Shown here piece by piece: positions 21,562 to 31,582 of a DNA stretch of 31,582 nt. The notes below the pieces were generated by a model. The model was not told the origin of the DNA, did no database searches, and saw only the letters and a list, made by a program, of their open reading frames with translations. The first letter of the stretch is position 1. Each line of letters begins with the position of its first letter. The position numbers and the translations under genes are program-made. The stretch covers positions 1 to 31,582 of IMG/VR virus record IMGVR_UViG_3300018876_001937. One strand, written 5' to 3'. This DNA comes from a virus.

Positions 21562-22287
21562 ATGGCAAATATCAAAAAGACACTAACTTACGCTATACCA
21601 GATTATATGTATTCAGGAACTACTGAGCAAGGTAAAACTAGTACGCAAGAATACGACGGACCAGATCATATAATTTTATGGGTTGATAAAGAAACTGGAT
21701 ACTTAGAGCAGTGTCATGCGGAGCATGAAGAGCCTGATTGTCCTCTTCCATTAAACATTAGAAGAGAAATTCTTAGAGCAGACACTAATGAAAACACAAT
21801 AAAAGTTGCTTTATTGTGGGGTGGTGTACAAGAACCTAAAGTATATGAAGTAGAAGTTGGTCCTAGTGATCAACCAAATGCTATTATTCCTGATCCTACA
21901 CACATTTGTGAAGTTTATAACGAATATGCATTATATGCAGATTATAAAGCACCATTACAGTGGGCTCCGATGGATAGAGCAGCAGCAGTTGAAGGTTGGG
22001 ATTTCTTAAGAACTGAAAGAAACACAAGATTGGCTAATAGCGATGGTAAAATAGCAGAAGACATGCCAGAATCATTAAAACAGGCGTGGCGTGATTATAG
22101 ACAGAAACTAAGAGATATGCCAACAGATTGGGCAGATGTTCCAGGTTATTTGGTTAGATTTCCAGAGTCACCTGATGATGGACCAGATCCAAACTTTAAT
22201 GATCCGGATGTAACTGTTACAAGGATTGCTGACAGAGGCGATGCTGATGTTACTGCTATTAGTATGCTTCCAAACGGTGTAAACTAA
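21562..22287 (+). CDS. tail fibre assembly chaperone-like protein
   Basis: A 241-residue protein. Residues about 146-188 (WDFLRTERNTRLANSDGKIA, then AWRDYRQKLRDMPTDW) match the phage tail assembly chaperone motif W-x-x-(V/I)-R-x-x-R-N-x-L-L-x-x-(S/T)-D, followed by W-x-x-Y-R-Q-x-L-R-D-(I/M)-P, of the Phage_tail_APC family. The N-terminal ~130 residues are family-unspecific, with an acidic YDGPDHIILWVDKETGYL segment that may bind the adhesin. It lies 13 bases after the Cys-rich protein and closes the structural operon. Such proteins help fold or attach fibre tips and are often absent from the virion. Ribosome site AAGGAG. Confidence 0.8.
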   Translation: MANIKKTLTYAIPDYMYSGTTEQGKTSTQEYDGPDHIILWVDKETGYLEQCHAEHEEPDCPLPLNIRREILRADTNENTIKVALLWGGVQEPKVYEVEVGPSDQPNAIIPDPTHICEVYNEYALYADYKAPLQWAPMDRAAAVEGWDFLRTERNTRLANSDGKIAEDMPESLKQAWRDYRQKLRDMPTDWADVPGYLVRFPESPDDGPDPNFNDPDVTVTRIADRGDADVTAISMLPNGVN

Positions 22288-22361: not shown

Positions 22362-23294
22362 ATGAAAAAAGCATTCTTTATCAACGGTGGTGCCGGTCGT
22401 GTACTTTGTGCGATTCCAGCATTAGAATATCATTTAAAAAATATTGATCCAACAGCACCTATTATTGTAGAAGGTTGGATTGATTTATATCTAACCAGTA
22501 AAATATTAGTTAACAATACCTTTCCTGCTAATGATCCTAATCTTTTTGAAAAATTAAAAGATAGAGAAATCATTACACCTGAACCTTACAAACTTAATGC
22601 TTATTTTACTCAAAGAGCAAACTTAGTGCAAGCCTTTGACATGCTGATTAATTATGATTATCCACCTGAAACAGTTCCGGAAACCAAAGTATACAATGAA
22701 CTCTTTATAGGAAAAAAAGATATTGCAACAGGTGAAGAGCTAGTAGCAGAAGCAAAAAGACATTTCAAAAAAGATAAAGTATTAATATTTCAACCATTTG
22801 GATCTACTGCTACAATACATGGCGGAGTAATTGTTGATGAAAGTGGTAGATCGTTTGAAGTAGATGATATTGTAGACTTACTTGAAGAATTGAATAAAGA
22901 TTATGCTGTTATACTAATGAGCAGTATGAAAATACCAACGGAACGAAACTTAAATGTAATGTTTCCGGAAGAAGTAAGTTTATTACAATGGACTGCAATT
23001 ATAAATGCTGCAGATTATTTCTTAGGTTGTGATTCCGTAGGACAACATATTGTTCACGCTCTTAAAAAACCTGGAACAGTAGTTATAGGTAGTACATTTC
23101 CTGAAAATATTTCATATCCGGAAAGTACCACACTAAAAATTATAGATAACGGATTAGGCGAGAGAATATATTCTCCTCTTAGAGTTGTAATAGATATTAG
23201 AATTGATAGACATAACGAAAATTTAATGAAACTAAGTGACGACACTAAGAAAAAAATTGTAAAACAAATTAAAGATACTTTAGGAAAACAATAA
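22362..23294 (+). CDS. GT9-family glycosyltransferase, heptosyltransferase-like
   Basis: A 310-residue soluble GT-B type enzyme. The N-terminal domain starts with the glycine-rich FINGGAGRVLCAIPALEYHL (6-25). The C-terminal domain has VLIFQPFGS (about 139-147) and FLGCDSVGQHIVHAL (about 220-234), matching the heptosyltransferase signature D-(S/T)-G-x-x-H with Asp224 and His229. GT9 enzymes move L,D-heptose from ADP-heptose onto lipid A core or other acceptors. Neighbouring ADP-heptose genes on the opposite strand (28237-30516) support this donor. The acceptor is not visible: phage fibre or host envelope. It heads the + strand sugar operon; its stop overlaps the next ATG as TAATG. Confidence 0.82.
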   Translation: MKKAFFINGGAGRVLCAIPALEYHLKNIDPTAPIIVEGWIDLYLTSKILVNNTFPANDPNLFEKLKDREIITPEPYKLNAYFTQRANLVQAFDMLINYDYPPETVPETKVYNELFIGKKDIATGEELVAEAKRHFKKDKVLIFQPFGSTATIHGGVIVDESGRSFEVDDIVDLLEELNKDYAVILMSSMKIPTERNLNVMFPEEVSLLQWTAIINAADYFLGCDSVGQHIVHALKKPGTVVIGSTFPENISYPESTTLKIIDNGLGERIYSPLRVVIDIRIDRHNENLMKLSDDTKKKIVKQIKDTLGKQ

Positions 23295-25117
23295 TGAGAA
23301 AAACAGGCTACATTGCAGGAATTGCTAGAGGGCATAATGCAGGTGTTTGTCTACTAAAAGACGGCGAAATTGTATTTGCAATAGAAGAAGAAAGATTATC
23401 TCGTTACAAATACGACGGTGGACCTTTTGCAAGTATGATTAAAATTTTAGATTATACAGATAAGATTGATTATCTTGCAATATCACACACACAACTTGCA
23501 GAGCCTATAAATGATTATGTGCCTCAAGATGTGTATACAGCACTCGCTAGAAAACTAAGATTAATTGACGATCCCGAAACACAGGTTTTTAAATATCATG
23601 ATCAACATCATAGAAGTCATGCTGCACTAGCATTTTATAGATCTGGGTTTGAAAAAGCAAGTGCTATAATTGTTGACGGTGCAGGAACATTTGTAGAAAG
23701 ACCTGACGGACAAACTATGTTTGAAGTTGAAAGTATATTTGATTGCACATATCCTGCAGGTTTCAAAGAAATTTATAAGCACTTTGGAGGCAACGGACCT
23801 TGGCAGACTGAACATTACAATAGAGATGGTAATGGCACAGAAGTAATGATCAACGATAAAGCAGGTATTGTTAAAGCATACGAAGCAGTAACAAGATTTT
23901 GCGGGTTTGATTCTATTGAAGCGGGCAAAACAATGGGTCTGTTTCCATACGGAGAACCAGATAAAGCACCTAAAATTTACACTAACATCTTTGGTGGTAA
24001 CAAAGACCTATTTACTAACACATATCCAAACGGAGCATGGGTCAATGAATCCCAATTTCCAGAAATAAGAGACAGAATGTATGATCCTAACGATATAGTT
24101 AGTTCGGTTAGTGATCCTGATAATCCAGATGAACAAAACAAAATTCAAGAATTGCTTAGAAAATCTGATAGAGAAGATGTTACACAACTTCCTTCACGTA
24201 GAAACATGGCATACAATGTTCAAGTAGAATCTCAACAACTTGTACTTGATTTAATTTTAAAATCAATTGAACGTACTGGAAATAAAAACATTGTTATTAG
24301 TGGCGGTTACGCACTAAACTGTGTTGCTAATTATTACTACTTAAAACATTTACCAGAAGGTGTAAAGATATATGTAGAACCTGTTAGCAATGATGCAGGT
24401 ACTGCAATGGGCGCAGCATTTTATCATTATTATAAAACATATGAAGATAAAAAAGTCAGACAAAAAGACGAAAATTTATTTTTAGGGCCAGTTCAAACTA
24501 TTACAGAAGATACAATTAGAGAAACTGCAAAAAAATATAATGGTAAGATAACAACAAATGTAGATTATAAACAAGTTATTGATACTATTAGAAACAGAAA
24601 TATTGTAGCATTATATCAAGAAAGAGGTGAAAGCGGCCCACGTGCATTAGGTAATCGTTCTTTAATGTATGATCCAACAGATCCAGACGGTAAAGATTTT
24701 GTTAATTTAGTGAAGAAGCGCGAATATTTTAGACCATTTGCTGCAACTGTATTACAAGATGATGTACATGATTGGTTTGACTTGCGTGGCATGGAAGATT
24801 CACCAAGTATGATGTATGCTGTTAATTGCCAACCTGGAGTGAAAGAAAAAATACCAGCAGTAATACATGTAGACGACACATGTCGAATACAAACAGTATC
24901 TAAAGAACAAAATGTACATTGGTATAACCTAATTAAGGAATTCAAAGATCAAACTGGAGTACCTGCATTGTTTAATACTAGTTTTAACTTAGGTGGCGAA
25001 CCACTTGTTGAATCTATTGACGATGCTTTACGCACTCTTTACAACTCAGGAATAAATTACATTTACTTTCCTGCTGTTAAAATACTAGTAGAGATCACAC
25101 ATAACGATAGAGCTTAA
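23294..25117 (+). CDS. NodU/CmcH-type O-carbamoyltransferase
   Basis: A 607-residue two-domain enzyme of normal family length. The N-terminal domain has H-N-A-G-V-C-L-L, I-E-E-E-R-L-S-R-Y-K-Y-D (about 16-41), DQHHRSHAALAFY (about 103-115) and D-G-A-G-T. The middle holds SGGYALNCVAN and VSNDAGTAMGAAF. The C-terminal domain has ERGESGPRALGNRSL (about 443-457), REYFRPFAATVL and NTSFNLGGEP (about 560-569). The family uses carbamoyl phosphate and ATP to form a carbamoyl-adenylate and transfers the carbamoyl group to a sugar or antibiotic hydroxyl. With a glycosyltransferase before it and an oxygenase after it, its job is probably sugar decoration. No signal of truncation. Confidence 0.88.
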   Translation: MRKTGYIAGIARGHNAGVCLLKDGEIVFAIEEERLSRYKYDGGPFASMIKILDYTDKIDYLAISHTQLAEPINDYVPQDVYTALARKLRLIDDPETQVFKYHDQHHRSHAALAFYRSGFEKASAIIVDGAGTFVERPDGQTMFEVESIFDCTYPAGFKEIYKHFGGNGPWQTEHYNRDGNGTEVMINDKAGIVKAYEAVTRFCGFDSIEAGKTMGLFPYGEPDKAPKIYTNIFGGNKDLFTNTYPNGAWVNESQFPEIRDRMYDPNDIVSSVSDPDNPDEQNKIQELLRKSDREDVTQLPSRRNMAYNVQVESQQLVLDLILKSIERTGNKNIVISGGYALNCVANYYYLKHLPEGVKIYVEPVSNDAGTAMGAAFYHYYKTYEDKKVRQKDENLFLGPVQTITEDTIRETAKKYNGKITTNVDYKQVIDTIRNRNIVALYQERGESGPRALGNRSLMYDPTDPDGKDFVNLVKKREYFRPFAATVLQDDVHDWFDLRGMEDSPSMMYAVNCQPGVKEKIPAVIHVDDTCRIQTVSKEQNVHWYNLIKEFKDQTGVPALFNTSFNLGGEPLVESIDDALRTLYNSGINYIYFPAVKILVEITHNDRA

Positions 25118-25128
25118 AGGAGAATAAC

Positions 25129-25755
25129 ATGGAAAAAGAAAATGAAGGAGAAATTTTTTCTTTATTTCCAACACCTTTATACACACATAAACTAGTAAAT
25201 CAAGAATATACAAATGTACAAAACGAATTACAGCCTATAGTTGATAATCTATACAGCGAAGGAACTTGGGGACAAAACCCAAATTGGAGTTCATCTTCAC
25301 AATATCTATCTAATCAAGGTGATTTTTTTGAACATCTATTGCAATTAAAAAATATGAAAATTACCGGTGAAACTATTATGCGTCACTGTGTAAATTATAT
25401 GGCAGCATGTAATGTTCAGCCTGCCTACAAAGCAGCAATGACTTCTTCGTGGTTAACATTAAACAAGCCTGGCCTTTCATCGCATATTCACGATCATGGT
25501 AACGCACATATTAGTGGAGTATATTGGTTTAAAACTGGTGGCGATGACGGCGACATTGTATTTAGAAATACATTGAAAGCGTTAAAATGCAATCCTATTG
25601 GCAGTTCTATTGCACACGAAAATTCTTTTCCCCCTGAGCAAGGTAGGCTAATTTTGTTTCCAGGATTTTTAGATCATAGTGTAAATGAAAACAAAACTAA
25701 CAATGATAGAATTAGTTTGTCTTTTAATATCTTGTTGGAAACAGGTGCAGTATAA
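25129..25755 (+). CDS. 2OG-Fe(II) oxygenase, 2OG-FeII_Oxy_5-like, copy 1
   Basis: A 208-residue protein. The start FSLFPTPLYTHKL (about 10-22) and the core SSHIHDHGNAHISGVYWF fit the putative 2OG-Fe(II) oxygenase family (pattern H-x-H...S-G-V-Y-Y), followed by G-D-I-V-F-R-N, G-R-L-I-L-F-P-G-F-L-D-H-S-V and R-I-S-L-S-F-N-I. Candidate metal ligands are His121 and His123 with distal His183; Arg194, eleven residues later, is the expected 2-oxoglutarate contact. Such enzymes hydroxylate proteins, sugars or nucleotides; the substrate is unknown. AAAGGAG lies before the ATG. TAATG overlap couples it to the SGNH-like gene. In this locus it may oxidise a sugar substituent or a fibre residue. Confidence 0.78.
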   Translation: MEKENEGEIFSLFPTPLYTHKLVNQEYTNVQNELQPIVDNLYSEGTWGQNPNWSSSSQYLSNQGDFFEHLLQLKNMKITGETIMRHCVNYMAACNVQPAYKAAMTSSWLTLNKPGLSSHIHDHGNAHISGVYWFKTGGDDGDIVFRNTLKALKCNPIGSSIAHENSFPPEQGRLILFPGFLDHSVNENKTNNDRISLSFNILLETGAV

Positions 25756-26489
25756 TGTTGCATATTTTTGGAGATAGTTTTTCTATTCCTCATGCACATA
25801 TGAAAGAAGTATTTGGTCCTAATAAGACTGAAGTAACATATCTACCTTTAGAAAAAAGTTGGACAACAATAGTAAGTGATGCTATAAGTAAAGATCCTCA
25901 TACTAACTATGCTATTTTAGGTTGTTCTAATGATTACATTTATCAGCAATTACGTGAAAAAGAATTATTGTTCAAATCAGGAGACTGTGTTATAATACAA
26001 TTAACTAATTTATATAGAGAATGGTTCTTTGAAAATAAACCATATATGGCTGTTCATATGGCAACACAAATGACTCCTGGTGTAGATATTACCCAACAAG
26101 AGTATGATGCATTAGAAATGTATAAACGACATTTGTATTCAGAAAGGCGCCTCATTTTGCATTATCATACACTGCTTGATGCATTATCTCTTAGAATAAA
26201 CTTGTATGGAGAACAAAATATTAAGTGTTTAATTTTACCAGGCTTTCACAATATTCAAGGTATAGAAGGAAACTTGTGTGAAGCATCTGGATCAGAATTT
26301 GATAATGAAAAAACTTCTATGGCATACCATGAAAAAACTGGCGACAATAGATTCAATCATTTTTCTGAAGTTAATCATAAAATTTTAGCAAGTAAAATAA
26401 TTAATTTTTTTAATACAGGCGAAACTATTGACTTGACATCTGGATTTAAAACTGGTATAATGACAAAGGAAATATTAGAAACATGTTAA
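25755..26489 (+). CDS. SGNH/GDSL-hydrolase-like protein
   Basis: A 244-residue protein. It begins IFGDSFSIPH with the block I G-D-S motif (catalytic candidate Ser8). GCSND (56-60) matches block III G-x-N-D loosely, with Asn59 as oxyanion-hole candidate. The C-terminal D197-N-R-F-N-H202-F-S-E-V-N-H fits block V, though Asp and His are five rather than three apart. No signal peptide, so it would act in the cytoplasm. In surface-sugar loci such proteins are usually O-acetyltransferases or deacetylases. It overlaps the next ORF by 7 bases (26483-26489). Whether it is an active esterase or a degenerate relative is unclear. Confidence 0.65.
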   Translation: MLHIFGDSFSIPHAHMKEVFGPNKTEVTYLPLEKSWTTIVSDAISKDPHTNYAILGCSNDYIYQQLREKELLFKSGDCVIIQLTNLYREWFFENKPYMAVHMATQMTPGVDITQQEYDALEMYKRHLYSERRLILHYHTLLDALSLRINLYGEQNIKCLILPGFHNIQGIEGNLCEASGSEFDNEKTSMAYHEKTGDNRFNHFSEVNHKILASKIINFFNTGETIDLTSGFKTGIMTKEILETC

Positions 26490-27097
26490 AACTTTCACTT
26501 GAAGGATATCCAGTTGGTATAAAAGAATTAGAACCACAAGACTTAAAAAGTCTACAGGATCATTATCTGCCGTTAGTATTAGGAAAGAATAGTGCTGGAA
26601 GTTCTAACAGTGCAAGTAAAATTACTAACAATCTATCTCAACGCTGGGACGATTCTGATTTTTTTAAAAAATACAATGATACTATATTGCCAGCACCTTA
26701 TATACAAGATTATATTGATTCATATTTGTTTAAATTTCCTTATAGCGTAGATATCGAAACTTGGTACAATGTACATGAGCAATATGATCATCAACAATTA
26801 CATGACCATATTACAACTAACGTACCAGCGTTTTCTTGTGTTGTAATTTTAAAACAGCCTAGTCCAGAAGCAGGACAATTTGTTTTTAGAACTCCTAATT
26901 TATCTAATCATTTAAAATATTTAGAATTAGATCCTATGAATGATTATCCTAATGCTTTTTACCCTGAAATGAAAGAGGGTTTAATATTAATGTTTCCTTC
27001 TTGTTTAGAACACTACGTACATTTTAATCAAACAACTGAGCCAAGAGTTGTTTTTTCTTCAAATATAATTGTAAAAAGAAAAGGTGACTTGTACTAA
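26483..27097 (+). CDS. 2OG-Fe(II) oxygenase-like protein, copy 2
   Basis: A 204-residue protein. The segment WYNVHEQYDHQQLHDHI carries H107-D108-H109, aligned with the H-x-H of copies 1 and 3. Distal EGLILMFPSCLEHYVHF gives His177, and Arg188 is eleven residues later, as in copy 1. The N-terminal half (about 1-80) is not alike and has no recognised domain. Its start lies inside the previous gene and its stop overlaps the next ATG (TAATG), so three genes are tightly coupled. The family needs Fe(II) and 2-oxoglutarate; the substrate is unknown. Confidence 0.7.
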   Translation: MLKLSLEGYPVGIKELEPQDLKSLQDHYLPLVLGKNSAGSSNSASKITNNLSQRWDDSDFFKKYNDTILPAPYIQDYIDSYLFKFPYSVDIETWYNVHEQYDHQQLHDHITTNVPAFSCVVILKQPSPEAGQFVFRTPNLSNHLKYLELDPMNDYPNAFYPEMKEGLILMFPSCLEHYVHFNQTTEPRVVFSSNIIVKRKGDLY

Positions 27098-27627
27098 TGG
27101 AAACTATTATTCCTTTTCCTATCACTGTTAAACCATTTAAACAACATAGTCAACTAAAACAGCAGATACTTGATGCTATTCAAAGACAAGAAAATGCTGA
27201 ACATATGACTGCACCTGACAGTGATATTATTAAATGCGATTGGAATACTGCAAGATATGATGGCAACAGAGAATGGCTTAAATTAATAAACCCTCCACTT
27301 TCTATGCATCTTGACGATTGGTGCAAAAACATGGGATATAAAACATTCGGCATAACTGAAATATGGTTTCAGCAATATGCAAAAGGTGGTAAACACGCAT
27401 GGCATACGCACAGCAATAACTTTACAAATGTTTATTATGTAAACTTACCAGAAGATGCACAAACAGAATGGATTAATCCATTAACTAAAGATAAAAACAC
27501 ATTTGATGTACATGAAGGAGATATTGTTACATTTCCTAGTTGGGTTATACACAGAGCTCCTGTTAATAATACAGAAGAAACAAAAACTATTATTTCGTGG
27601 AACATGGATATATCAATAGAAGATTAA
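27097..27627 (+). CDS. 2OG-Fe(II) oxygenase-like protein, copy 3
   Basis: A 176-residue protein of the same family. HAWHTHSNNFTNVYYVNLP carries His103 and His105, and HEGDIVTFPSWVIHRAPV gives distal His152. At the position of the 2-oxoglutarate-binding Arg (eleven after the distal His) there is Lys163 (ETKTIISWNMDI). Lys can do this job in some 2OG oxygenases, such as FIH, so loss of activity cannot be assumed. The N-terminus (IIPFPITVKPF) fits the family's P-x-P-x-x-V start. It ends 4 bases before the phosphatase gene. Confidence 0.75.
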   Translation: METIIPFPITVKPFKQHSQLKQQILDAIQRQENAEHMTAPDSDIIKCDWNTARYDGNREWLKLINPPLSMHLDDWCKNMGYKTFGITEIWFQQYAKGGKHAWHTHSNNFTNVYYVNLPEDAQTEWINPLTKDKNTFDVHEGDIVTFPSWVIHRAPVNNTEETKTIISWNMDISIED

Positions 27628-27631
27628 ACTT

Positions 27632-28240
27632 ATGAATAATATTACAATAGGATTAGATAGAGACGGCACCATAAATGAAGATATTGGAACTTATGTTACC
27701 CATCCTATGCAATTTAAACCTATCACAAATAGTTTAGAAGCAGTAGCACTTCTTAGGAAAAAAGGTTATAATATTGTTGTACTAACTAATCAAGCAGGAG
27801 TTAGTAAAGGTATAATGACTACTGAACAAGTTGCTGTTGTGCATGACTATCTGCTTAATTTGCTAGGACAAGCAGGTTGTGAGAGTATAGATGGAATCTA
27901 TTATAGTCATACAAGTCAAAAAAACGATATCTTTGCAAAGCCTAATATAGGCATGTTTAAAAAAGCAGAATCTGAGTGCGATATAAAATTTAAAGGTGGA
28001 TTTTATGTTGGCGATAAGTTAACTGATTTAAAGGCAGCAGAAAAAATAGGCGCAACACCAATATTAGTTCGTACAGGGTATGGTGAAGAAACAGAAAAAA
28101 AATTAAAAAGATTTACCTACAAAAATCTTGCAAGAAAAACAATGGTATTTGATAACTTATGGGAATTTGCTAGTTCTTTACCTGATCCAGAAATAGAAAA
28201 TAAATCTGCAAATACTGCATTGAAAGCGTCTTTTATTTAA
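27632..28240 (+). CDS. gmhB: HAD phosphatase, D-glycero-D-manno-heptose 1,7-bisphosphate 7-phosphatase-like
   Basis: A 202-residue HAD-superfamily enzyme. Motif I is GLDRDGTINED (Asp9 nucleophile, Asp11), motif II VVLTNQAGVSKG, motif III Lys103 in AKPNIGMF, and motif IV YVGDKLTDLKAA. Order and spacing fit GmhB/HisB-N phosphatases, which remove the 7-phosphate from heptose 1,7-bisphosphate. The zinc loop (C-x-H...C-x-C in E. coli GmhB) is replaced by YYSHTSQKNDIFAKP, with Ser92-His93 and no Cys, so the zinc site is lost. The neighbouring heptose genes support the substrate; histidinol phosphatase is the main alternative. Convergent with the epimerase gene, with overlapping stop codons. Confidence 0.8.
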   Translation: MNNITIGLDRDGTINEDIGTYVTHPMQFKPITNSLEAVALLRKKGYNIVVLTNQAGVSKGIMTTEQVAVVHDYLLNLLGQAGCESIDGIYYSHTSQKNDIFAKPNIGMFKKAESECDIKFKGGFYVGDKLTDLKAAEKIGATPILVRTGYGEETEKKLKRFTYKNLARKTMVFDNLWEFASSLPDPEIENKSANTALKASFI

Positions 28241-29046
28241 ACACCATCTATATATTCTTTTACAGTTTTAAATTCTATATCAAAAATATTAAGCAACTTC
28301 GTTATATCAGCACAGGTATATTCTTGATATTGCCCTTGTAACCCCTCAGGCATTGGAATATACTTAATATCTGCATTATATTTTTTTGCAATTATTTCTG
28401 CTACTGTTTGAAAACTAGTTGTAGAGCCTGTACCAATATTGTACAAACCAGACTGTATGTTATTCAATATCATCTGTTCATGTATATCACATACATCTCC
28501 TACAAATATAAAATCTCTTAGGTACTTGTCACTGTTTTCGAACAATGTAATAGTACCTTCTTCTTTTGCTTGTGTTGTAAATTTTGTTATAGGACTTGCT
28601 TGATTTCCCTTGTGTTCTTTAGGACCGTATACATTAAAGTATCTCATACCATGTACACAAATCTTGTGTTCCTGCTGCCATACCCATCTATCAAATAGAT
28701 ATTTGCTCCAAGCATAAGGGCTCTGTGGTTGTTTAGGGTCATCTTCTCCAAACTTTTCATATGGTCCATATACACTTGCACTAGATGCGTATTGAAGATT
28801 TACACCCCTAGTGTTGCATTCTTTGAATATCCATTTAGAAAATTCAAAGTTTTGTAACATGATCTTATCAACATCTCTTTCAGTAGTACTAGATATTGCT
28901 CCTAAATGTATTACCCAATCATATCCGTCAACACTAGGTTTATGATTTTCACTATAATCATAACCGTGAACTTCGTGTTCTATTCTAAGTTTATCAATTA
29001 AATGTCTTGCAATAAAACCTTTATCACCTGTAACTAATATCTTCAT
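28237..29046 (-). CDS. hldD: ADP-L-glycero-D-manno-heptose 6-epimerase-like
   Basis: A 269-residue extended short-chain dehydrogenase. G-D-K-G-F-I-A (7-13) is the NAD(P)-binding turn; HLGAISSTTERDVDKI (47-62), SSASVYGP (88-95), Y111-A-W-S-K115 as catalytic pair, RYFNVYGPKEHKG (135-147), LRDFIFVGDV (176-185), YNIGTG and Y-I-P-M-P-E-G-L-Q-G-Q-Y-Q follow HldD closely, including the H-K-G with Lys146. HldD inverts C6 of ADP-D,D-heptose. It is about 40 residues shorter than E. coli HldD. The start overlaps the kinase stop by four bases. The family call is strong; a related nucleotide-sugar epimerase is a minor alternative. Confidence 0.86.
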   Translation of the reverse strand: MKILVTGDKGFIARHLIDKLRIEHEVHGYDYSENHKPSVDGYDWVIHLGAISSTTERDVDKIMLQNFEFSKWIFKECNTRGVNLQYASSASVYGPYEKFGEDDPKQPQSPYAWSKYLFDRWVWQQEHKICVHGMRYFNVYGPKEHKGNQASPITKFTTQAKEEGTITLFENSDKYLRDFIFVGDVCDIHEQMILNNIQSGLYNIGTGSTTSFQTVAEIIAKKYNADIKYIPMPEGLQGQYQEYTCADITKLLNIFDIEFKTVKEYIDGV

Positions 29047-29795
29047 ATCTGTTTTAAATCCTCTTGTGTAAGCACGTATACTCCGCTGTGCTGTACGGAC
29101 AATGCAGCAGCATTATTAGCGTGCATAATTGCTTGTTCGATGTTATTGCAGTTTAGATATGAATACGCAAGTACAGACAAGAATGTATCTCCCGCACCGC
29201 ATACATCATGCACTTCAACTACAGGTGCATTGTACGTATTACCTTTGTATGTGGCACCTTCTTTTCCTTTTGTAACAATTAAATCCTCACAAAAAGTTTT
29301 AGCTCTACTATATTCAAGACTGTTTATTTTTAATATACAACCTTCAAATTTATCAAGGTATAATTTTTTAGTATCTACAAATATAGGACCTTTAAATTTA
29401 TTTCTTAAATTTATAATTAATTCTTCTGTGACAAAACCCTTGTTATAATCACTTATTACTATTGCATCATAACTTAAATTAACAAATTCAGTATGACATG
29501 GAGCAACTGTTTGTTCTTTATCAACTCTAATTAAATGTTGTCCTGATCTATAATCAATATATCGTGACTTAACTATTTTTTCTTTGTTGGTAATAAAATC
29601 AACATTACACCCAAATGCTAGTAAATTTTCATTTACGTTAGCGGCCATTCCTGGATTTGTTTTTGTATTTTTATTTTGAAAAACAGGAACAGGTGCTTCA
29701 GGACTGATACGATCGGTGCTACCATAATGGTATTCATCGATACAACTATCGCCTATCAGTAATATCTTGTATTTTGTTCGTTGTTGAATAACCAT
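29043..29795 (-). CDS. hldA: heptose 7-phosphate kinase-like (HldE kinase half, PfkB family)
   Basis: A 250-residue ribokinase/PfkB protein corresponding to the N-terminal half of HldE. KILLIGDSCIDEYHYG (10-25) and RISPEAPVPVF (29-39) are typical of RfaE domain I; N-P-G-M-A-A-N-V (47-54) is the substrate turn; D-V-C-G-A-G-D-T-F (197-205) holds the catalytic Asp203. The domain is shorter than the ~315 residues usual in HldE. The predicted reaction adds the 1-phosphate to D-glycero-D-manno-heptose 7-phosphate. The reading frame overlaps the upstream cupin-nucleotidyltransferase by 50 bases, leaving the ATG at 29795 inside it. I found no later start that keeps the first strand. Confidence 0.8.
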   Translation of the reverse strand: MVIQQRTKYKILLIGDSCIDEYHYGSTDRISPEAPVPVFQNKNTKTNPGMAANVNENLLAFGCNVDFITNKEKIVKSRYIDYRSGQHLIRVDKEQTVAPCHTEFVNLSYDAIVISDYNKGFVTEELIINLRNKFKGPIFVDTKKLYLDKFEGCILKINSLEYSRAKTFCEDLIVTKGKEGATYKGNTYNAPVVEVHDVCGAGDTFLSVLAYSYLNCNNIEQAIMHANNAAALSVQHSGVYVLTQEDLKQI

Positions 29796-30516
29796 TATCT
29801 ATCTCGTAAAATTCAATTGCGTTACAATGTTCTGCACCTACAATTCTCTTATCTTTGTAATCACTACCTTTGACCATCACATCAGGAGCGTAGTTTTTTA
29901 TTATATCGACTAATTCTTGTTCTGAATCAAAATAAACTACTTCGTCAACTGCTTTTAAATTGTTTAACAAATGTAATCTTTCATTAAGTTGATTTATAGG
30001 ACGATTTTTTCCTTTTAATTCTTTTATTCTAGCATCAGTATCAATAGCAACTAGCAGATAATCTCCTAAAGATTTTGCATAATTTAATAAGTTTACATGT
30101 CCTTTATGCAGAATATCAAAACTTCCATTTACAATAATACGTTTACCTATTTGTTGACTACTACCTGGGAATACTCTATAATTATCTTCAACACTATCCG
30201 CTGAGCTTACTTCAAAAATTTCACTCATTTCTTCTAATGCTTCAAGTTGATGCGGTTGCAATGGTGGATTATGCCATTTGTCTCCTTTAACAAGCTCTTT
30301 CGTATGTATTGTTGCATCTTTTGTGTCAATCCATTTTAACAAAAACTTTCCACTGTTTACAAACCATGTTTCTTCTTTTTCTTTATGAAAATGCATACTA
30401 AATTTAGCACCTATTTTTTCAAATACCATAATTTTTCCACAGTATTTTTCGTTAGTTGCCCATATTAATTCATGGCCCCATCCTTTTTTGACTTTTCCCT
30501 CTAATCGTGTGCTCAT
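29746..30516 (-). CDS. hldC: cupin fused to HldE-type heptose 1-phosphate nucleotidyltransferase
   Basis: A 256-residue two-domain protein. Residues about 10-110 form a cupin (HELIWATNEKYCGKIMVFEK; S-M-H-F-H-K-E-K-E-E-T with His42, His44, Glu48; P-P-L-Q-P-H-Q with His89), like sugar-phosphate isomerase cupins. Residues about 126-256 are the nucleotidyltransferase half of HldE: VNGSFDILHKGHVNLL with H137-x-G-H140, L-K-G-K-N-R-P-I-N, V-K-G-S-D-Y-K and Y-S-T-T-N. In HldE this domain is fused behind the kinase; here it follows a cupin and the kinase is separate. The start at 30516 has GGATAG upstream; the gene heads the - strand operon. Confidence 0.82.
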   Translation of the reverse strand: MSTRLEGKVKKGWGHELIWATNEKYCGKIMVFEKIGAKFSMHFHKEKEETWFVNSGKFLLKWIDTKDATIHTKELVKGDKWHNPPLQPHQLEALEEMSEIFEVSSADSVEDNYRVFPGSSQQIGKRIIVNGSFDILHKGHVNLLNYAKSLGDYLLVAIDTDARIKELKGKNRPINQLNERLHLLNNLKAVDEVVYFDSEQELVDIIKNYAPDVMVKGSDYKDKRIVGAEHCNAIEFYEIDNGYSTTNKIQDITDRR

Positions 30517-30607: not shown

Positions 30608-31582
30608 ATGTCCACAATACCAATATTCAACGCAGTACGTATTATACCTAGAGAAACAGATTTTCTTGACAGAAATGTAGGGTCAAGAGGTGAAATATTT
30701 TTTGATAGGCAAGCAAATGCTTTAAGAATCTATGACGGTACCGCCAAAGGCGGAATCAGTGTTTTAACACCTACAAACGTAACAAAAGAAATAACTTCAT
30801 CTGGTGTTGCAACTGTAAATTACAACACAACAGTAGCAAGAAATACACCAGACACAGGAAACGTTTACTACTTGAACGGTGTTGAAAATCCTGAAATGAC
30901 GTTTGTGATCGGATACACATATGTTTTTGATCAAACAGATTTAACTAATTTATATTTTCCTAACAGTAACGGTACAACACTTAATCAACATCCTTTAAAT
31001 TTTAGTTCTGATAATGCTAATGGTGAATTAAGTGGCGGTACTGCATATCTTGATAATGTTATATACCAATTAGACGGAGTTATTGTAACTAAAACAAAGT
31101 ATAAAGAATCGTTTGCAACTGCAACAACACGTTCAGTTCAAATTACTGTTACTAACAGCACTCCTACTACGCTTTACACTTGGTGTGGTTATCATTCAGG
31201 TATGGGCAACACAATTACTGTTGCTGAACCAGGTACAGGTTCTGGTAGCGGCGGCGCAAGTTTAGCAGTTTCTGACACTGCTCCAGATAGTCCTACACAA
31301 GGAGATATTTGGTATAATAGCACAAGCGCAAAACTATATGTTTATGTACAAGATACTGATAGCAGTCAATGGGTACAACCTGCTGCACCTGCTCCTGGAA
31401 CACTATTAGGTTTAGGTATTGCAGATGGAACAAACGGACAAGTTTTAACTACAGACGGTAATGGAACATTTACATTTCAAGATGCTTCAGGAGGTTTTAG
31501 CGGAGCCTATGGTGATTTAACAGGTGCTCCTACTAATGTAAGCGCATTCACTAATGACAGTGGGTATTTAACTTCAGTTCCA
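30608..31582 (+). CDS. tail fibre protein, 5' part (runs off the window)
   Basis: An open frame of 325 codons without a stop to the right edge. The start MSTIPIFNAVRIIPRETDFL and D-R-N-V-G-S-R-G-E-I-F-F-D are typical of T4-like marine phage fibres. LYTWCGYHSGMG (about 196-207) resembles the plastocyanin-like C-x-x-H-x-G-M-G motif frequent in such fibres. S-D-T-A-P-D-S-P-T-Q-G-D-I-W-Y-N (about 222-237) is the QRP/RYN-type module. GAYGDLTGAPTNVSAFTNDS, near the visible end, is a common fibre repeat. It shows that fibre genes resume beyond the sugar block. No ribosome site precedes the ATG. Confidence 0.82.
   Translation, partial: MSTIPIFNAVRIIPRETDFLDRNVGSRGEIFFDRQANALRIYDGTAKGGISVLTPTNVTKEITSSGVATVNYNTTVARNTPDTGNVYYLNGVENPEMTFVIGYTYVFDQTDLTNLYFPNSNGTTLNQHPLNFSSDNANGELSGGTAYLDNVIYQLDGVIVTKTKYKESFATATTRSVQITVTNSTPTTLYTWCGYHSGMGNTITVAEPGTGSGSGGASLAVSDTAPDSPTQGDIWYNSTSAKLYVYVQDTDSSQWVQPAAPAPGTLLGLGIADGTNGQVLTTDGNGTFTFQDASGGFSGAYGDLTGAPTNVSAFTNDSGYLTSVP

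Follow-up and report, generated by a model that had tools for sequence, protein, structure and literature searches.

Predicted ADP-Heptose Genes and a Cupin-HldC Fusion among the Fiber-Type Genes of a Phage Contig

Introduction

Heptose genes of ocean phages have so far been listed as lipopolysaccharide (LPS) genes without an agreed purpose. Can a phage that carries such genes make its own heptose donor, and if so, what does it decorate? The question is raised by a block of genes (22362-30516) in the virus record IMGVR_UViG_3300018876_001937. The window analyzed here is this entire record, a linear stretch of 31,582 bases that is the whole available contig and probably a genome fragment. A first-pass annotation had placed five enzyme genes of heptose metabolism in the block, and all five are where it put them. 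The reading that we favor, with a probability of roughly 0.6, is that the phage makes ADP-heptose, an activated sugar used by bacteria for their outer coat, that a glycosyltransferase (GT) and its partner carbamoyltransferase use it, and that the fibers of the phage are somewhat likelier than host LPS to be the target. The assignments of the kinase, phosphatase, adenylyltransferase, and epimerase, and the predicted GT9 fold of the GT, are each supported by family, motif, or structure.

Predicted Enzymes of ADP-Heptose Synthesis

Family searches place heptose families on top by wide margins for the four enzymes that precede transfer, in agreement with the identities first proposed, and they place neither kinase, phosphatase, nor epimerase in an unrelated substrate clade. 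The kinase (29043-29795, minus strand) has TIGR02198 rfaE_dom_I as its top curated family (152 bits, 1.8e-44), the runner-up being ribokinase with 44 bits. The epimerase (28237-29046, minus strand) scores 230 bits with TIGR02197 (2.8e-68) versus 55 bits with GalE. The phosphatase (27632-28240, plus strand) matches PRK08942 (141 bits, 3.5e-41) and TIGR00213 (82 bits). The adenylyltransferase is part of a longer protein (29746-30516, minus strand), in which the HldC domain occupies residues about 119-256 (29746-30162) and matches TIGR02199 across residues 125-252 (128 bits, 3.2e-37). The top PDB matches are concordant, namely 1eq2 (HldD) for the epimerase, 4e84 (HldA) for the kinase, and 3l8h and 4pnh (GmhB-like) for the phosphatase; the top fold match of the HldC domain is HldC itself (5xf2).

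Motifs were checked by alignment with the proteins encoded in the Escherichia coli K-12 genome record. In the epimerase, YxxxK and the HKG lysine of HldD are retained. The kinase, which is compact and shorter than HldE, retains ISPEAPVPV and GAGDT. The HAD-type phosphatase retains the catalytic LDRDGT, and the Cys residues of the Zn loop are missing from it. HldC retains the nucleotide-binding motif, whose DNA motif occurs once, and in none of 100 shuffles. No match to GmhA (SIS family, PF13580) is found in the 31.6-kb record, which bears out its absence from the block as first described. It is thus very likely, by family and motif, that the phage itself converts heptose 7-phosphate to ADP-heptose, as had been suggested.

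If the order of steps follows that of E. coli, the HldA-type kinase would phosphorylate heptose 7-phosphate at C1, the GmhB-type phosphatase would then remove the C7 phosphate, the HldC half of the fusion would adenylylate the sugar, and the HldD-type enzyme would epimerize C6. The GT and carbamoyltransferase would use the product as donor, presumably with carbamoylation of the heptose, and its acceptor would be the phage's own tail fibers somewhat more probably than host LPS. Entry into the pathway, from sedoheptulose 7-phosphate to heptose 7-phosphate, would depend on host GmhA or, possibly, on the cupin fused to HldC.

The Glycosyltransferase and Its Partner

The GT (22362-23294, plus strand; phrog_8954 family) has no Pfam match by sequence and gives only a weak GT9 signal (TIGR02201 at 5e-4). 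Since a sequence search with its profile retrieved no GT9 structure, structure prediction was needed. An AlphaFold model built from 25 relatives (predicted local distance difference test, pLDDT, of 89) aligns with the GT9 structures 3tov, WaaF, TibC, and WaaC at Z 18-22, and with other GT-B folds at Z of at most 12. By this model, the GT has the GT9 heptosyltransferase fold. Among these enzymes, TibC is a protein heptosyltransferase. Chains of the chloroplast NDH-PSI supercomplex (7wff_a, 7f9o_6, and 9grx_1) also match the model at Z 18-19, near the GT9 level.

The next gene (23294-25117, plus strand) codes for a NodU/Nol-type carbamoyltransferase (Carbam_trans_C, 2e-54; Carbam_trans_N, 1e-25). 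GT and carbamoyltransferase accompany each other in 78 of 80 viral loci. The core of Pseudomonas LPS contains carbamoylated L,D-heptose, for which WapO is the putative carbamoyltransferase (PMC8005017). The carbamoyltransferase beside the GT suggests carbamoylated heptose as the product in the phage as well.

The Cupin-HldC Fusion and the Isomerase Step

The HldC gene is a fusion. The first-pass annotation had read its whole length as an HldC-type nucleotidyltransferase, which holds for the C-terminal part; residues 1-118 (30163-30516, minus strand) had been overlooked and form a cupin domain with metal-type ligands. Among 16 diverse phage cupins aligned, H42, H44, H89, and K47 are invariant and E49 is nearly so. 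The cupin profile matches type II phosphomannose isomerase with an hhalign probability of 92% (92 columns, 24% identity) and oxalate decarboxylase domains with 88% and 70%, so the margin is small; the match to the isomerase covers more of the cupin's length. Single cupin members match PF01050 weakly (best 5e-6), and the PDB matches include oxalate decarboxylases, which rank first, quercetinases, and D-lyxose and L-ribose isomerases. The AlphaFold model of the fusion is good for HldC and poor for the cupin (pLDDT <50 for residues 1-43).

Phosphomannose isomerase and GmhA catalyze the same type of manno-aldose/ketose exchange. The cupin is a candidate isomerase replacing GmhA, a role that we consider possible but doubtful. 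A precedent by analogy for an isomerase joined to HldC is the RpiB-like domain fused to HldC in the single-cell genome of Prochlorococcus sp. AG-347-M18. The fuller proposal is that the cupin is a metal-dependent sedoheptulose 7-phosphate isomerase unrelated to GmhA, so that the whole route is phage-encoded, and that the carbamoylated product is placed on the phage's own tail fibers; this combination is improbable, and more so than the isomerase role alone.

The cupin occurs in all 46 viral cassette clusters (described below), a figure that is biased because the cupin-HldC fusion served as the query for many of the loci. In a sample gathered with the kinase as the only query, nearly all untruncated cassettes have it, the exception being contig L106. 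One relative carries a second cupin copy that has lost the metal-ligand residues (L008:397-741). In a genome scan, the sole cellular matches among the best 80 for the cupin are two contigs of one Neomarinimicrobiota metagenome-assembled genome with a phage-like cassette. These contigs (L109 and L110) share the cassette with viral contig L014 and are probably phage DNA within the genome bin.

Cyanophage Cassettes and Their "Phosphoheptose Isomerase"

The same genes are present in the cyanophages P-SSM2, S-CAM1, S-CAM3, S-SSM7, and others. The cassettes of P-SSM2 and S-CAM1 run from GT through carbamoyltransferase, HldC, HldA, a gene called phosphoheptose isomerase, and cupin to an epimerase on the opposite strand, with fiber genes on both sides. 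S-SSM7 has the same set plus insertions, between a tail fiber gene and gp13-gp15, and P-TIM68 has a variant of the cassette amid other sugar genes. Sullivan et al. (2010) had noticed that P-SSM2, S-SM2, and S-SSM7 each have T4-GCs 304, 305, 307, and 308 together with three more, and left open whether these are functional genes or stuffer DNA (PMC3037559); heptose genes, phosphoheptose isomerase among them, are also listed for a cyanophage in a later genome note (PMC7378029).

By its sequence, this so-called isomerase is a HAD phosphatase-type protein and not a SIS isomerase. It has 107-114 residues; DIDGTIC or a similar HAD motif lies at its start, and GKP..D..IDD near its end. Its top family, at 1e-8 for the best-scoring member, is that of the EcbF/BcbF capsule phosphatase, and isomerase families give no match. 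The mislabeled gene lies at L001:14740-15084, with equivalents in L002, L003, and L004 (P-SSM2, S-CAM1, P-TIM68, and S-SSM7). A real GmhA in these cyanophages is rejected, as the gene of that name is HAD-type and no SIS member is found in the four genomes. The cassette itself is thus not new in kind; the relabeled small HAD and the GmhA-less sets with a cupin seem to be the new points.

Distribution among Viral Cassettes

Grouping 74 loci at 90% kinase identity gives 46 cassette clusters. A GmhB-type phosphatase is present in 25 of these, the small HAD in seven, neither in 14, and both in none (Fisher p = 0.002, the clusters being not fully independent). Most simply, GmhB-type phosphatase and small HAD would perform one and the same step, and in the 14 clusters with neither a host phosphatase may suffice. 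None of the 50 cassette-bearing records searched has a member of the SIS family to which GmhA belongs; they comprise four complete cyanophage genomes and 46 contigs that are possibly fragments.

One contig has a run of cupin, GmhB, HldC, HldA, and HldD between ClpP-like and 5-aminolevulinate synthase-like aminotransferase proteins (L053:5651-12138, read by eye). Many cassette-bearing contigs have a NUDIX-like gene after gp15 (for example, L006:2021-2443, L017:5585-6028, and L033:5564-6034); the family assignment rests on the homolog in L027, and several jumbo phages annotate MutT/NUDIX at the gp15 match.

Phage Affiliation and Host

The window contains no marker gene. In the nearest marker-bearing contig (L006), the full-length homologs of gp15 are those of the jumbo myoviruses Atu_ph07, Phosso, and PA5oct (31-32%), and cyanophage gp15 aligns only partially. 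The photosystem gene psbA is found in none of 37 related contigs, one of which has 262 kb, versus all four cyanophage controls. The large fiber protein of the window is closest to those of marine cyanophages and single-cell viruses (33-35%), a likeness that can reflect exchange of fiber genes. Judged from these sequences, a cyanophage (Kyanoviridae) affiliation is improbable. A picocyanobacterial host as the default is rejected on account of the jumbo-type gp15 of L006 and the lack of psbA in the related contigs. Even in picocyanobacteria, host-supplied GmhA is not assured, because only 24 of 101 sampled genomes of the family have GmhA-like genes.

Position of the Block and Possible Target of the Sugar

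Tail-fiber and baseplate-like proteins are encoded across much of the left part of the window, and PHROG matches on both flanks confirm that the block lies between fiber-type genes. Directly upstream is a fiber-assembly-like gene (21562-22287, plus strand; phrog_9740, 2e-34; phrog_4912 tail fiber assembly, 1e-7), and downstream is a tail-fiber or baseplate-like gene that runs off the record (30608-31582, plus strand; phrog_708, 3.6e-16; phrog_9729 tail fiber, 2e-8). Decoration of the virion is favored because of this position, the fiber-assembly-like neighbor, the TibC-like fold of the GT, and a report that the LPS of cyanobacteria lacks heptose (PMC4515613). Virion glycosylation is known in mycobacteriophages (cited in PMC12619734). 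The first-pass annotation had argued that, if the host is cyanobacterial, its heptose-free LPS would make a virion target likelier; this argument does not extend to the window phage, whose host is probably not picocyanobacterial, and it still applies to P-SSM2 and its kin. Among the targets, the virion comes first at a little under even odds, the host envelope is a less probable one, and any other target is somewhat less probable again.

Several observations weigh against the reading that we favor. Position 13 of the GT, which corresponds to the catalytic Asp13 of E. coli WaaC and WaaF, is Arg in the window phage and in every phage relative aligned. Hence, the GT9 heptosyltransferase first proposed stands as to its predicted fold, and its heptosyl transfer is putative. 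Moreover, the GT pair exists where no donor pathway is detected. Among 30 contigs of more than 20 kb with the pair, 15 have cupin and HldC, one has the cupin only, one a distant nucleotidyltransferase only, and 13 neither. HldA was not detected in the last 14 of these, in a search without its own positive control but with a kinase query that recovers relatives in other searches. There the pair has no need for a phage-made donor, and in some phages it may use a host-made one; the idea that the GT always requires a phage-made donor is rejected on these counts. The scores of all four ADP-heptose enzymes are below the full-length curated cut-offs, which points to divergent phage members of the heptose families. 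Finally, by analogy, the likeness to LPS GT9 enzymes and the carbamoyl-heptose of Pseudomonas would agree almost equally well with the host envelope as target, and the Prochlorococcus genome AG-347-M18 has a cluster with other sugar enzymes, so that related sets may make other sugars. This cluster (L133:6554-10292) includes the RpiB-like/HldC fusion, an HldA-like kinase, an aldolase-like protein, a cupin, a transaldolase-like protein, and a small HAD of the cyanophage family.

Among the alternatives, the most serious is that the cassette remodels the host envelope by adding heptose or carbamoyl-heptose to LPS or capsule, blocking superinfection or altering receptor display. The fold of the GT is no closer to TibC (Z 19.7) than to LPS heptosyltransferases (Z 21.5 for WaaF), carbamoyl-heptose is found in an LPS (PMC8005017), and earlier authors have read phage LPS genes in this way (PMC7029224; PMC9602691). 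However, the block sits among fiber genes and contains no acceptor-side enzyme, flippase, or ligase, and cyanophages carry the set although the LPS of cyanobacteria is reported to be free of heptose (PMC4515613). We regard envelope remodeling as a tentative second choice.

A shift in substrate of kinase, nucleotidyltransferase, epimerase, and phosphatase, such that another activated sugar is made, is unlikely. It would account for the scores below cut-off, the lack of GmhA in the cassette-bearing records, the short kinase, and the RpiB, aldolase-like protein, and transaldolase of the Prochlorococcus relative. Yet a heptose family tops the list of every enzyme with a large gap to the next, HldD keeps its HKG signature, and the phosphatase is GmhB-type in more than half of the clusters. 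That the block is passenger DNA without selected function, the stuffer idea raised in PMC3037559, is very improbable: the cassette region does vary among phages and some relatives are without parts of the set, but gene set, overlaps, and catalytic motifs are retained across phages whose kinases are just 36-50% identical.

Other Genes of the Block

The plus-strand run (GT to phosphatase) and the minus-strand run (cupin-HldC, HldA, and HldD) meet convergently with a 4-base overlap. The HldC and HldA genes overlap by 50 bases, and a similar overlap is seen in P-SSM2. Between carbamoyltransferase and phosphatase are three proteins resembling 2-oxoglutarate (2OG)-Fe(II) oxygenases (PF13759), at 25129-25755 (5e-17), 26483-27097 (7.5e-12), and 27097-27627 (8e-10), and a 244-residue protein (25755-26489) that has no Pfam, NCBIfam, or PHROG match and is conserved in relatives; all four are on the plus strand. 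These four genes, the carbamoyltransferase, and the prior cyanophage record of the cassette had been overlooked in the first-pass annotation. By megablast, the block has no match among phage isolates. In close relatives, the gene beside the fiber genes codes for a large protein that has motifs of subtilisin-like (S8) proteases (L006:4300-6333 and L092:2698-5661), and the one of L006 has a PHROG protease match (4e-11).

Discussion

The relabeled small HAD, the isomerase that is never of the usual kind, and the carbamoyltransferase linked to the GT give a loosely labeled gene set enzyme steps that can be tested, and the set extends past cyanophages to jumbo-like myoviruses, where it lies beside fiber genes. 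If virions do carry heptose, this would be a new modification of phage fibers; an isomerase role of the cupin, if real, would mean that an unrelated protein stands in for GmhA. The most useful results are the relabeled small HAD, the cupin domain, the absence of Asp13 from the GT, and the setting outside cyanophages.

Compared with the E. coli ADP-L,D-heptose pathway (GmhA, HldE, GmhB, and HldD), four of five activities are shared by family and motif. The phage record differs in lacking GmhA, in having kinase and adenylyltransferase as separate proteins, in the phosphatase without Zn loop, and in the cupin carried by HldC. With type II phosphomannose isomerase, the cupin shares an N-terminal WG motif, HxH and a later His, and a C-terminal E-V region, whereas identity is only 24% and the oxalate decarboxylase domain is nearly equal (88%). 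With the GT9 enzymes WaaC, WaaF, and TibC, the phage GT shares the predicted whole-chain fold and the DS..H donor-site motif; it differs from WaaC and WaaF, as do its aligned relatives, in having Arg and not Asp at position 13. In gene context, the phage carbamoyltransferase resembles WapO, the putative LPS heptose carbamoyltransferase of Pseudomonas, whose gene likewise accompanies heptose genes (PMC8005017). The closest counterpart is the "LPS" cassette of the cyanophages P-SSM2, S-CAM1, and S-SSM7 (T4-GC 302-308). The window has a GmhB-type phosphatase where these cyanophages have the small HAD, cupin and HldC form one protein in it, three 2OG oxygenases come in between, and its phage is probably no cyanophage, yet the GT family, the carbamoyltransferase, HldC, HldA, the cupin, the opposite-strand epimerase, and the tail-gene neighborhood are all shared.

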